Below are positions 1 to 5,438 of a stretch of DNA of 5,438 nt, one piece after another. The DNA is taken from NCBI GenBank assembly GCA_021129445.1, contig JAJOLG010000055.1:1-5438 (forward strand), written 5' to 3'. This DNA is from Candidatus Altimarinota bacterium. Its GTDB lineage: Bacteria > Patescibacteriota > Gracilibacteria > GCA-2401425 > JAJOLG01. Under the pieces are notes generated by a model. That model was not told the origin of the DNA and did not search any database. It saw only the letters and a program-made list of their open reading frames with translations. Within the stretch, counting starts at the first letter, position 1. Every line of letters starts with the position of its first letter. Made by a program: the position numbers and the translations under genes.

Positions 1-140
1 TTAAATTCAGTTATAATATTTATAAAATCTCATAAATCTTTTTTTATCCAATATTTTCATATTTCTTCTGCTACAGTTTCAAGCCCACCTTTATGTGGTG
101 GAAAATATGGTAAAAATTGTATTATGTTTATTTTTTTCAT
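1..140 (-). CDS. Glycosyltransferase family 4-type, N-terminal part (runs off window)
   Basis: This is the start of a probable GT4/GT1-fold glycosyltransferase, which would transfer a sugar from a nucleotide- or lipid-linked donor to a cell-surface glycan or glycolipid in the cytoplasm. The ATG is at 140-138 and the frame is open to the left edge, giving about 46 residues. Residues 4-26 read as a first beta strand (INIIQFLPYF) followed by PPHKGGLETVAEE. The YFPPxxGGxE pattern is typical of the donor-side N-terminal domain of GT4 enzymes, where the GG loop lies in the active-site cleft. Two in-frame TGA codons must be read as Gly. No Shine-Dalgarno sequence sits at the usual distance. The small frame upstream overlaps this start by 13 bases. 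Acceptor and donor cannot be told from this fragment. The family call rests on one motif, but the motif is a strong one. Confidence 0.72.
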
Positions 141-226
141 TTTAAAACTTTAAAATTATAATTTTTATTCTCCCAAATAACTCTTACTTCTCTGTCTTCA
201 AAAAATTTTATTGATATTTTTTGCAT
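128..226 (-). CDS. Small 32-residue ORF, possible BRO-N/RhuM-like N-terminal remnant
   Basis: This short frame starts at ATG 226-224 and ends at TAA 130-128. It reads through a TGA at 139-137 that code 25 makes Gly. It overlaps the end of the GalE fragment by 19 bases and the glycosyltransferase start by 13. The peptide contains IKFFEDREVRVIWENKN, which resembles the opening of BRO-N/RhuM-type domains (roughly IKxFEDKxVRxxWxE). These domains occur in phage antirepressor-like and mobile-element proteins. If so, this is a stump, because the domain normally continues for about 80 more residues. It could also be a chance frame: with only TAA and TAG as stops, an open run of this length is not rare in such AT-rich DNA. 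The recognition is from memory of the motif. Confidence 0.3.
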
Positions 227-393
227 AAAATTTTATTTTTTTTATAAAACCTCCAACTATTCTCCAAATTTTTTTCATCAGAATTTGCAAAATTATCCAA
301 AATTATCGTTTTATATCCAGCTTTTTCAAAAGCGATAACCGCATGCGAGCCGATGTATCCAGCTCAACCTGTAATTAAAATTGTTTTTTTCAA
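208..393 (-). pseudogene. Truncated GalE-like UDP-glucose 4-epimerase, N-terminal fragment (61 aa)
   Basis: The frame runs from a TTG at 393-391 to TAA at 210-208. An in-frame TAA at 405-403 limits any upstream extension. Residues 2-37 are an almost textbook start of a GalE-type short-chain dehydrogenase/reductase: a first strand KKTILIT, the NAD-binding GGAGYIGSH at 9-17, a helix, and the second strand TIILDNFANS ending in the Asp that binds the adenosine ribose. The second Gly of GGAGYIGS is a TGA codon, which supports the Gly reading. After about residue 43 the sequence stops resembling the family, and the frame ends near 61 residues. Intact GalE is about 320-340 residues with a later YxxxK catalytic pair, absent here. 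The fragment cannot be an active epimerase. A deletion or recombination between a galE start and the adjacent glycosyltransferase locus would explain it; a misassembly is also possible. Use of TTG as start is inferred. Confidence 0.7.
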
Positions 394-534
394 TGTGTGG
401 TTTTATTTTTTATTTTCAATAAATTATTTTTTCATAAATTTTGATAAAAAAAATACTTTTTGCAAAAAAATTCTTACATACCTCTTACATTAAAAAAATA
501 TTTTATTAAGGTACAAAAAAAATAAATAAAAAAA
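394..534. promoter_or_regulatory. Divergent intergenic region upstream of the RND operon
   Basis: This gap of about 140 bases separates the leftward GalE fragment from the rightward pump gene, so the pump operon promoter is expected here. It is extremely AT-rich with long A and T runs. A TTGCAA at 460-465 could be a -35-like element, but no well-placed TATAAT-like box follows at 16-18 bases; the nearest candidate, TACATT at 486-491, is 20 bases away. The octamer TCTTACAT occurs twice, 11 bases apart. An AAGG at 508-511 is too far (23 bases) from the ATG at 535 to be a normal ribosome binding site. The bases just before the ATG are nearly pure A, as often seen in leaders lacking a Shine-Dalgarno sequence. 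No terminator hairpin is seen. The promoter role is inferred from position only. Confidence 0.35.
472..490 (+). repeat. Direct repeat TCTTACAT, 11-base period
   Basis: TCTTACAT appears at 472-479 and again at 483-490, separated by ACC. The 11-base start-to-start distance is about one helical turn, so both copies face the same side of the DNA. It lies 45-63 bases upstream of the pump ATG, where an operator or activator site could be. In such low-complexity DNA the repeat may be chance. Confidence 0.3.
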
Positions 535-3500
535 ATGCAAAAACAACATAAACAAAATCTTTTAGAAGAAGCAAAAAATTCAATTTTTACTTTTTTTATC
601 AGAAAAAAAAGAATTGCATACTTGCTTGCAATTTGAGTTTTTTTAGCCTGAATTGCTTGATCTGTTTTGATTTCAAAAGAAAATACACCGAAAATTGATT
701 ATTGAATTGTAAATGTGACAACGGTTTATAATTGAGCAAATGCAGTAGATATCGATAGTTTGGTGACTTCCAAAATTGAATCTGAAATTAAGTCTATTTC
801 TTGAATTAAAAAAATTTCTTCAACTTCAAAAAATAGTGTTTCTTTTATTTCTGTTGAGTTTGATCCGAATGTGAATATGTCAGAAAAGATGAACGAAATC
901 AGGTCTTCTGTTGATACTGCAAAAAATAAAATTCCAGATTGAGCAGAGGATCCAACGATTTTGAGAATAAATTCTTCTTTAGAACCAATTTTTAATTTGC
1001 ATTTAAGTTGAGATGTGAGCAATGTTTTATTGATGGATTATGCAAAAGATTTGCAAGATATTTTAGAAAAAACTTCTTTTGTCGAAGAGGTGGATATTTT
1101 TTGACAATGAGAAAGAGAATATCAGGTTAAACTCGATCCGGTAAAATTAATTCAATATAATTTAAGCTCTGTTGATGTTATAAATGCGATAAAGTCCGCA
1201 AATAAAGATTTTCCTGCTTGATATTTTGATATAAATTGACTTGATTACAATTTAAGAATTGCATGAAAATATGTGTGAATTAGTGATATTGAAAACACAA
1301 TTGTTAGATCTTTGCAATGATCTCAGTGAAATTGATTTATTTTAATTAAAGATATTGCAAAAGTTTATCAATGATTTGAAGATGATAAAGTTATTGAAAA
1401 ACTTTATATTGATTGAAAAAGGTTTAATACGGTAAAACTTCTTGTAAAAAAATCTGATAAACAAAATATTTTTGTAATTGATGAAAAAGTAAAAAAAATA
1501 ATTGAAGAGTTTTGAAAGAAAAATCATTTTGAAGAAAAGTGAATTCGTATTGATTATATTCAGCAAATGATTGTTGATGTTAAAAAATCTTATGAAACGG
1601 TTTTTAAAAATTGAATTCAGTCAATTTTGATTGTTATGCTTTTAATGATTGCTTTTATTTGAGTTAAAGAGTGATTTATTACTTGAATGATAATACCTTT
1701 GAGTTTTCTTGCGACAATTGCAGTTTTATTTTGAATGTGAGAATCTTTGTCTTTTATTTCAAATTTTGCGATGATTTTGGCACTTGGGATTATTGTTGAT
1801 ACTGCGATTGTAATTGTTGAATGAATTCATAAATGAATAAAACATTGATTTACTGCGGAAGAATCTGCGATTATTTCGGTTTATGAATTCAAATGACCGC
1901 TGATTTCTTGATTTTTAACGACAATTGCAGTTTTTATTCCGCTTTTGGTTTTGCCAGGTGTGATGTGAAAATATTTAAGTTATATTCCGATTACAGTTTC
2001 GATTATTTTAACCGCATCGCTTTTGATTTCATTTTTTATAATTCCAGCTATTGCTGTAAAAATTTTATCAAAGAAAAAAAATATTTGAGAGGGTAGAAAA
2101 ATTTCTTTTTTTAAAAAAATAAATCTTTTTATTGAAAAAAAATTTTCTGAATATTGAGAAAAATATAAAAATCTTTTAGAAAAAAAATTATGAAATAAAT
2201 TTTTTAGAAGATGAGTTTTTTTACTGGTAGTTGCTTTGTTTGTAATTTCAAATTTTTTACCGGTAAAATTTACAATGTTTCCGTCAGATGATATGAATTT
2301 TTTTACTGTCACAATAAAAAATGAGCCATGAGCAAATACTTTAAATACAAATGCGATTTCAAGAGAAATTGAGGGTAAAATTTGAGAATATCCAGAGGTG
2401 AAATATTTAGAAACTTCAATTCAAGACAACAAATCTACAATTTTAATTGAGTTGTTTACAAAAGAATTTAGAGAAGATAATAAAATGAAAACTTCGCAAA
2501 TGATTATTACAGAATTGCAAGAAAAATTTGCAAAATATAAAAATTATAAAATCTCTGTTTCTGAGCAAAAAAAATGACCTCCAAGTGCATCACCTGTTGC
2601 TTTTAGGGTGATAGTTCAAGATGTAAATCAAATAAATTCTGCACAAAAAATTGTTGAAGATGTAAAAAATATTTTGAAAAAAATTCCTTGAACAAGTTGA
2701 GTTAGTGATGATTTAAATAATTCTCCATGAGAAATAAAATATACAATTGAAAGATGAAAAGCATTGGCTTTATGAGTAAATCCAGATTTAATTTGAACAA
2801 TTTTAAAATCAGCAATTGATAATGTTAAGGCAAGTGTAATTCAAAAATCATGAGATGATTTGTCGATAAATGTTTTTTATGATGAGAAAAAAATAAGAAA
2901 TTTTGACGATATTGGAAATATTCAAATTATTAATAATAAATGAAAAGCAATCTCTCTTAATCAAGTTGTCAAACAAGAATTAAATTCAAGTTTAATGAAT
3001 ATAAAAAGGGTTGATTGAAATATTGCAATTACAGTTTTTTCAAATTTGACAAAAGATTGAAATGCACTTGAAATTACAAACAAAGCACTTTTGGAAATTG
3101 ACAAAATCCAGTTGCCAGATTGAATAAAAATAGAAACTGCATGAGAAAATAGCGATAATAAAGATCTTTTTGTGGCAATGTTGTTGTGATTTTTAGCCTG
3201 AGTGTTTTTAATGTTTTTTGTTCTTGTTGTGCAATTTGACTCATTTTTATTGCCAATAATTGTTTTATTTACAATTGTAATGGCACAAACTTGAGTAAAT
3301 TTGTGACTATTTTTGACAGATACTTTGAGATCAATGGCATTTTTAATTTGATCGATTTCTCTTGCGTGAATTGTGGTAAATAATGCAATTATCTTAATTG
3401 ATAAAATAAAAAATCTCAGAACAACTTATCCTGATGAAAATTTAGTTAAAGTAATTGCAGAAGCATGAAGATCTAGATTTCAACCAATAATTTTAACAAC

Positions 3501-3660
3501 TTTGACAACAACTGCATGAATATTGCCTTTAATGTGGGTTGATAGTTTTTGGAGAGGGCTTTCGGTGACAATTGTGTTTTGATTGTTATTTGCGAGTTTT
3601 TTAACTTTAATCGTGACACCAATAATGTTTTATTCAATTTTTAATAAAAAAAATAAATAA
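535..3660 (+). CDS. RND family efflux transporter, HAE/AcrB-like (1041 aa, TGA read as Gly)
   Basis: This is a proton-driven RND pump of the cytoplasmic membrane, the motor of a two- or three-part efflux or export complex. The first usable start is ATG 535, since an in-frame TAA lies at 523-525. The gene ends at TAA 3658-3660, and 1041 residues match AcrB (about 1049). The architecture is complete and duplicated: TM1 at about 28-46, a large extracytoplasmic loop 47-361 that opens with the family pattern VNVTTVYNGANA (58-70), TM2-TM6 at about 362-510, TM7 at about 561-577, a second loop 578-877, and TM8-TM12 at about 878-1035. Family motifs include LALGIIVDTAIVIVEG in TM4 (415-430, with Asp422 aligned to AcrB Asp407), LPGVMG (473-478), QFDSFLLP (900-907), AGIVVNNAIILID in TM10 (944-956) and FQPIILTTLTTTAGILPL (982-999). 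Both loops are about 300 residues, the HAE size that includes docking subdomains. About 60 glycines are TGA and only about six are GGN. The substrate cannot be inferred. The adaptor gene follows after 8 bases. Confidence 0.95.
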
Positions 3661-3668
3661 AAAATAAA

Positions 3669-5438
3669 ATGAAAAAAATAATCATTCTAATAATTTTAGG
3701 TTTATCAATTTGAATTTTTTCTTGATGCGAGAAAAAAATTTCTAATGAAAATGAAAAAATTTTAACGGAAGAAAAAAAATTTTTACCAAAAGTAAAAATT
3801 TTAGAAATTTGAGAAAATACCAAGAAAAATTTTACAATTTTGTGAGAAGTTTTTCCGGAAAAAGAAAGTGTTTTTGTGTCAAAAGTTCCAGATTGAATAA
3901 TTTCTAAAATTTATGTAAAAAATTGAGATAAGGTAAAAAAATGACAAGTTTTAATGGAAATTAAATCTGCAAAAACATTACAAAATTATTTAAATGCAAA
4001 AAATAATTATCAAAAAGCGGTAGCCGTATGAAATCAGTCAATAAAATCTGCGAGTGTAAATTTAAATAATTTAAAAAGCCTTTCTGAAAAACAAAAAAAT
4101 GAATTAACAGAAAGTTTATCAAGTTCAAAATCGTCAATAAATTTAACAATTCAAAAAGCAGAAGCAGATTTGCAATCAATAATTTTATTAAATCAAAAAA
4201 TGGAAAAAACGGCAAGAGAAAATCTGGAAAATGCGATGAAAAGTGCAGTTATTTTGTCTGAAAAAACTTTAAATGATATTGATAAAATTTTGTGAATTGA
4301 AGACAGAAATGAAGAAAATGCGATGAAGTATCAAAGTTATTTGTGAAATTTAAATACAGAAAGTTTGTATAACGCAAGAGATAATTACAGATTGGCTAAA
4401 AAATTTTTTGATGAAAATAAAAATTCTACGGATTTAGAAAAAATTTTGGAACTTTTAAAAAAAGTGAAAATTTCATCTGATTCAAATTTGAAATTATTGA
4501 AGAATTCTACAACTGGTTCGAATTTTACAAATACAGAATTGCAAAATTTAATCAATTCGTTTTCTGCATCATCAAGTACGATACAGTCTTCACTTAACTC
4601 TTTGGTTTCTTTGACAAATGCTTTGAATACCACAATTGAATCAAATCAAAAAAATAAAACAACAGCAGAAAATGCTTTAAAAATAGTTAAAAATGCTGGG
4701 GAAAATTGAAATTCAAAAACAATTTTAACAGCAGAATCAAGTTATGAAAAAAATATTAAAAGTTTAGATAATTCAATACAATCAACAGAAGAAAATTTAA
4801 AATCTGTGCAAAAATCTGTTCAGCAAAATATTTCTGCAGCGCTTGCGAATTTGAAAAATGCAGAAATTGCAATGCAAGATTTAATAATTAAAGCAGATTT
4901 TTCTGGAGAAGTTTCAGATATTTTTGTTGACAAGTGAGATAATGTATGACTTTGAACAAAGCTCGTGTCAGTATCAAATAATTCACAATTTAAAATTGTT
5001 GCATTTTTATCAAAATATCAAATTTCATGAATTTCAAAATGAGATTTAGTAAAAATTTGAAAAAAATCTCATGATAAAATTTTCTCAATTTCATCAAATT
5101 CAGATCCAATTACAAAAAAATACAAAGTTGAAATTTTGCATGAAAATCCATTTTTGTCAGCATGACAATTTATTGAATTAACTTTTACAAGAAATTTGGA
5201 TTTGATTTGAAGCGATAAAATATTTTTAGATTTACCAGCAGTTTTTGTGACAGATAAAGAAGATTATGTTTGGCTTGTTGATTCTGAAAATAAAATAAAA
5301 AAGCAAAAAGTTGAACTTGGTGGGATATTTTGAAATAAAATTGAGATTGTAAATGGTTTGAAAAAGTGAGATTTTGTGATTGTTTGGGGAGGAAGATTTT
5401 TGAAGAAGGAGTGAGAGGTGGTTGAGGTTGTTGAATAA
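3669..5438 (+). CDS. RND adaptor / membrane fusion lipoprotein with extended helical hairpin (589 aa, TGA read as Gly)
   Basis: This is the partner adaptor (AcrA/HlyD-type membrane fusion protein) of the pump upstream. It would sit on the outer face of the cytoplasmic membrane and couple pump movements to the exit path. ATG 3669 follows an in-frame TAA at 3654-3656. Residues 1-20 form a lipoprotein signal, KK plus a hydrophobic stretch ending in the lipobox FSGC, with Cys20 as the lipidation site. The first barrel-sandwich half is at about 56-100 (PDGIISKIYVKNGDKVKKGQ at 74-93). A helical, Asn/Ser/Lys/Glu-rich segment spans about 102-402. The second half is at about 405-435 (KADFSGEVSDIFVDKGDNV), followed by the beta-barrel (about 436-515) and the membrane-proximal domain (about 520-580, with LKKGDFVIVWGG). 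The family is usually 350-420 residues; the extra length lies in the helical segment, about 300 residues here. Around 22 TGA codons encode Gly, including Gly19 of the lipobox. It is co-transcribed with the pump by inference, and no Shine-Dalgarno sequence is visible. The stop is TAA at 5436-5438. Confidence 0.92.
3726..3728 (+). other. Lipobox cysteine codon (Cys20) of the adaptor
   Basis: The TGC here encodes the cysteine of the FSGC lipobox. It is expected to be diacylated by Lgt and exposed as the new N-terminus by signal peptidase II. The codon just before it, TGA at 3723-3725, must be Gly for a good -1 position; under the standard code the protein would end inside its signal peptide. A few charged and polar residues (EKKISNENEK) follow as a linker. 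Confidence 0.75.
3972..4874 (+). other. Extended alpha-helical hairpin region of the adaptor (about residues 102-402)
   Basis: This part of the adaptor lies between the two half-motifs of the barrel-sandwich domain, where AcrA-type proteins carry a coiled-coil hairpin. It is rich in Lys, Glu, Asn, Ser, Leu and Ile with few Gly or Pro, as expected for long helices. Clear helical stretches include TLQNYLNAKNNYQKA near the start and SVQQNISAALANLKNAEIAMQ at the end, matching the typical outgoing and returning arms. Several short Ser/Thr/Asn-rich breaks (for example KNSTTGSNFTN) suggest more than one hairpin or a tip domain in the middle. The boundaries are approximate, and the helical prediction is by eye. 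Confidence 0.65.

Follow-up and report, generated by a model that had tools for sequence, protein, structure and literature searches.

The adaptor gene and its permease partner

The window, by which we mean the whole 5,438-nt stretch of DNA analysed here, carries on its forward strand a gene for an AcrB-type RND permease and, starting 8 bases downstream of it, a gene for an RND-type adaptor (Table 1). The adaptor gene is one open frame when TGA is translated as Gly (genetic code 25); it runs from 3669 to 5435, is 589 aa long and has 22 glycines encoded by TGA. The product matched the TIGR01730 RND_mfp model at 6e-39 (133.8 bits, against a curated cut-off of 94.9), and Pfam matches, structural models and the arm-length covariation described below all gave the layout of an adaptor, with a barrel-sandwich domain split into two halves and a helical insert between them. 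The earlier note on this DNA had placed the two halves correctly, as Biotin_lipoyl_2 matched residues 72-98 and HlyD_3 matched from residue 407; because of these positions, and of a TIGR01730 match above the cut-off, we regard the insert as real and in frame. The segment 3972-4874, on which that note had centred, corresponds to residues 102-402. Judged by its sequence matches, the adaptor is an ordinary member of its family (TIGR01730, HlyD/AcrA superfamily), and its putative lipidation site, Cys20, is kept in at least 90% of the rows of our alignment A1.

Table 1. Features of the adaptor-permease locus, in window coordinates
Feature	Position	Strand	Basis
RND permease (AcrB type), 1041 aa, adaptor partner	535..3660	+	ACR_tran 2e-166
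RND-type efflux adaptor (membrane fusion protein), 589 aa, code 25	3669..5438	+	translation; TIGR01730, HlyD_D23 and HlyD_3 matches
Signal peptide with lipobox-like FSGC, Cys20 (probable lipoprotein anchor)	3669..3728	+	read off the sequence
Barrel-sandwich (lipoyl) domain, first half, residues 57-100	3837..3968	+	Pfam Biotin_lipoyl_2 72-98, HlyD_D23
Putative hairpin, ascending arm, residues ~101-208	3969..4292	+	model all helix; length co-varies with descending arm
Predicted helical tip region, residues ~209-287, flanked by motifs A and B	4293..4529	+	conserved motifs in alignments
Putative hairpin, descending arm, residues ~288-409	4530..4895	+	model all helix, single break near 345-349; length covariation
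Barrel-sandwich domain, second half, start of HlyD_3 region	4875..4979	+	Pfam HlyD_3 407-493

Of the proton-relay residues, the permease keeps the equivalents of Asp407, Arg971 and Thr978, and it has Thr in place of Asp408 and Asn in place of Lys940; a permease from Brevibacillus likewise lacks Asp408 and Lys940. In 19 of 20 neighbourhoods of relatives, adaptor and permease genes were adjacent, and in the remaining one (L191) a 203-aa gene lay between them. These neighbourhoods were picked among the matches, several of them already known to adjoin a permease, and therefore tell what the unit consists of, not how often it occurs. No third conserved gene stood beside the pump in the 20 neighbourhoods, hence no S-layer or adhesin gene, and MarR-, TetR- or MazE-type regulators were next to some of the pumps. 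The conserved unit comprises two genes, adaptor and permease. Their order in the window, permease then adaptor, is the reverse of that in the 20 neighbourhoods. On the minus strand of window positions 1-420 we also observed a GalE-like start (208-393, 61 aa) and a glycosyltransferase-like start (approximately 1-140), both stopped early, which are possibly gene remnants.

Length of the insert in this and other adaptors

Insert length was taken for all adaptors by the same yardstick, as the number of residues between the conserved profile anchors that flank the insert. By this measure the adaptor has an insert of 293 aa (about 293-301 residues lie between the barrel-sandwich halves), compared with 78 for Escherichia coli MacA and 110 for E. 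coli EmrA, and with values read off anchor positions of ~64 for AcrA, ~112 for the Brevibacillus RND adaptor and ~106 for two cyanobacterial adaptors. The insert is thus ~4.5 times that of AcrA and ~2.7 times that of EmrA, and the helical stalk exceeds its counterpart in E. coli AcrA by a factor of three to four, which bears out the earlier claim of a helical insert of roughly 300 residues, several times the AcrA hairpin.

This length is ordinary within the Patescibacteria. Among 150 distinct patescibacterial adaptors, a sample drawn mostly from best matches to a long-form profile and biased toward long forms, the insert had a median of 326 aa (quartiles 282-352, range 57-399), and the window adaptor ranked 44th from the shortest. 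An adaptor match was present in 306 of 353 genomes of the same class, and the best-matching frame in 82 genomes of other patescibacterial classes had a median length of 534 aa (61 at or above 500, 7 at or below 400). Long inserts extend across the whole sampled phylum, in dozens of families. Conservation of length had been named beforehand as a sign of real function, and ordinary short hairpins in relatives as a sign against it; the long form turned out to be typical of the phylum, with few short forms. Two patescibacterial loci, L173 and L174, encode adaptors with inserts of 57 aa only, and short forms therefore coexist in the phylum with long ones. Our scan of genome contigs also returned one locus, from Aliivibrio, whose adaptors have a short insert of 50, and no adaptor relatives were found in the viral contigs scanned.

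Topology of the insert

For 90 relatives in which both tip motifs (described below) were significant, we divided the insert at the motifs into a first arm of 78-150 aa, a tip of 76-103 aa (median 90) and a second arm of 79-155 aa. The lengths of the two arms were strongly correlated (r=0.92, slope 0.89; r=0.93 for the 50 distinct combinations of arm lengths), and the difference between them had a standard deviation of 5.8, as against 20.3 expected if the arms were independent. Phylogenetic independent contrasts, run on a tree built from the flanking domains only, gave the same picture (r=0.87, slope 0.98), 46 contrasts having the same sign in both arms and 3 the opposite sign, and tip length was not tied to the lengths of the arms (contrasts 0.05 and 0.10). 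In the 400 closest pairs, which are not independent of one another, the commonest non-zero difference in length was 7 residues in both arms, and 14 was frequent too. Steps of 7, 14 and 25 residues were paired at matching heights of the two arms: where the arms differed by nearly equal amounts and each was aligned with a single gap, the gap heights on the two arms matched with r=0.95 (66 pairs, non-independent and representing far fewer independent events), and the selection of near-equal steps does not force equal heights. Each arm also had a hydrophobic period of 3.55-3.6, well above that of shuffled sequences. In one locus, L017 (G046:C8), the arms are 150 and 151 aa long, and in its sister on the tree, L016, 78 and 79, a difference of exactly 72 residues in both.

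These observations bear directly on the concern that the insert is a low-complexity artefact, a Ser/Asn-rich spacer that has no structure and whose length is arbitrary. Such a spacer would accommodate arms rich in S, N, K and Q and the low confidence of our single-sequence models, and it is contradicted by the covariation of the arms, the contrasts, the paired heptad steps, the gaps at matching heights and the helical periodicity, as well as by the conserved tip motifs and the scarcity of Pro and Gly; we hold it to be very improbable indeed.

AlphaFold2 models were built without relatives, and we used them for secondary structure only; pLDDT was 41 when the full protein was modelled and 61 when only the insert was, and pTM was no higher than 0.3. 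Both models gave the insert as helix with no strand, at low to medium confidence. In the insert-alone model the predicted helices, in protein numbering, are 101-137, 140-208, 215-225, 230-250, 256-280, 288-344 and 350-409. A fold search with this model returned nothing below E 0.001 and only unrelated coiled coils, as is to be expected of a low-confidence model.

Because the arms co-vary, lengthen by paired steps at matching heights and have a helical hydrophobic period, the insert fits one antiparallel coiled-coil hairpin with a tip, the packing of the arms being deduced from their lengths. Adaptor hairpins in general are described as growing and shrinking by heptads in both helices (PMC4446572), a rule that is recovered here from sequence alone.

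A different fold for the insert would be a multi-helix bundle, or several hairpins folded back on one another, which would make a short, thick head in place of a long stalk. CusB provides a precedent (PMC4446572), the model breaks near residues 137-140 and 345-349, and the tip helices 215-225, 230-250 and 256-280 could form a small bundle. Against this, the outer arms grow equally and at matching heights, as would fit a single antiparallel pair, and a fold-back inside each arm would need symmetric lengthening as well. We consider this fold improbable, and several hairpins in particular were rejected on the covariation of the arms, the contrasts and the heptad-paired gaps at matching heights. 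Of the two layouts that the earlier note had left open, then, the single antiparallel hairpin stands, with the addition of a conserved helical tip, and the set of several hairpins does not. At 0.1485 nm per residue the arms would span ~16-18 nm, to which the tip would add a few nm; the ~20 nm reach proposed before needs to be shortened to a stalk of this size, because ~80 of the ~300 residues belong to a separate helical tip.

The tip

Two conserved motifs mark the boundaries of the tip. Motif A reads D-x-[IL]-[LI]-G-[VI] in relatives, followed by N-D-x-[FY]-E-x-x-L-G, and begins at Asp205 of the window adaptor; motif B reads N-S-x-[TS]-G ... [ST]-Q-x-x-L and lies around Gly283. The tip profile was present in frames of 500-720 aa from many families of Patescibacteria, and it matched no Pfam family and no solved structure in the PDB. 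Such conservation suggests a specific contact or a closure. The far end of the adaptor is thus of a design common to relatives across the phylum and has no known docking partner.

A possible target of the tip is an S-layer protein or a host cell; the pump would then pass material to, or take it from, the far side of the contact. Many Patescibacteria live attached to hosts, and a conserved tip whose sequence is without Pfam or PDB match would suit such a role. However, the 20 neighbourhoods show no S-layer or adhesin gene as a conserved neighbour of the pump, and the spread of the adaptor over many families argues against a host-specific device, so that we rate this role as quite improbable.

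The cell envelope

We found no match to PF02321 (TolC/OEP) in the genome that carries the window, a draft of 77 contigs that is ~95% complete, and hence no tripartite set of the AcrAB-TolC type. Omp85 was likewise not found in this draft, and a sortase is encoded. As the genome is an incomplete draft, the absence of TolC and Omp85 is not absolute; together with the sortase, it is as expected for a cell with one membrane and a wall, in agreement with the earlier supposition of a cell without a standard outer membrane. Among 60 relatives, 5 had PF02321 matches at E<=0.001, 3 of these above the cut-off and just one with two full repeats. Within the same class, one relative stands apart in having a 422-aa frame (G051:C17:5-1156) that matches OEP (TolC-type) twice and is either a real channel or contamination.

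A single membrane does not by itself explain the length of the stalk, because the RND adaptor of Brevibacillus, also a monoderm, has an insert of ordinary size. The thickness of the wall or S-layer is a natural candidate for the cause, and it is plausible, as proposed in the earlier note, that the adaptor spans one or the other.

Comparison with known systems

The adaptor resembles AcrA and MexA (TIGR01730) in its domain order, its lipobox-like signal, its adjacent AcrB-type permease and the position of the hairpin in the lipoyl domain. It differs from them in the length of the insert (293 aa versus ~64 in AcrA) and in the conserved helical tip between the arms; also, AcrA docks on TolC, and no channel of that type was detected here. 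Spr0693 of Streptococcus pneumoniae, a MacA-like protein, offers the likeness of a one-membrane cell without TolC, in which a hexameric adaptor tube, modelled as reaching 154 A from the membrane, is proposed to cross the inner wall zone (PMC5768738). However, its partner is an ABC transporter, whereas the partner adjacent to our adaptor is an RND permease and not a MacB-type protein, and its hairpin barrel is 56 A high (PMC5768738) as compared with an estimated 160-180 A here. EmrA has a long coiled-coil hairpin at the same place, 127 A in the Aquifex protein (PMC4158417), and differs in its shorter insert (110 aa in E. coli), its MFS partner and the lack of a match to the tip motif. By description, the Gram-positive adaptors MesE, ComB and PlnH likewise have very large hairpins and come from cells that have no outer membrane (PMC4446572), although the partners of these proteins are peptide-exporting ABC transporters.

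A putative conduit across the wall zone

We propose, with a probability of roughly 0.75, that the protein is an RND pump adaptor that forms a conduit through the wall zone of a cell with one membrane. The adaptor would be held on the permease by its putative lipid anchor together with its barrel and membrane-proximal domains, and a single antiparallel coiled-coil hairpin, with ~105-120 residues per arm, would rise ~16-18 nm from the barrel-sandwich domain and end in the small helical tip. Six copies may form a tube, as judged by analogy to AcrA, MacA and Spr0693; substrate leaving the permease would pass along it across the wall zone and be released in or beyond the wall.

Alternatively, the long hairpin may serve as a scaffold or a substrate-handling cage near the membrane, which folds or steers exported substrates and is not a conduit. 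This role has been proposed for those Gram-positive adaptors whose hairpins are very large and which lack an outer membrane channel (PMC4446572), and the 20 neighbourhoods contained no gene for a docking partner. Yet the permease is of the AcrB type, which usually handles small molecules, regulators of the drug-pump type lie beside some relatives, and the conservation of the tip points to some specific contact or closure; we regard a scaffold as unlikely, while giving it appreciable weight. In comparison, a conduit across the wall zone remains our preferred reading.

Implications

AcrB-type (HAE-1) pumps have been described as active only when both an adaptor and an outer membrane channel accompany them (PMC8277102). 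Here, pumps of this type are found in a large phylum of tiny bacteria in which no channel is detectable, and their adaptors have a common tip on stalks that are unusually long and lengthened in a regular way. New here are the length class, a tip without Pfam or PDB match and the lack of an outer channel; a partial coverage of the literature yielded no description of such long patescibacterial RND adaptors. The surprise is lessened by the very large hairpins already known from Gram-positive ABC adaptors (PMC4446572). As a tentative proposal, which we put forward as possible and no more firmly than that, these proteins may constitute a phylum-wide class of RND adaptors in which the outer membrane channel has given way to a stalk of 12-23 nm with a helical tip dedicated to this role, the length being tuned by paired heptads, perhaps to the thickness of the wall, and the tip sealing the tube, docking on the S-layer or touching a partner cell. 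If stalk length does track wall thickness, envelopes that are difficult to image could be gauged from genomes, and the tip would offer a clue to the way in which such pumps end.
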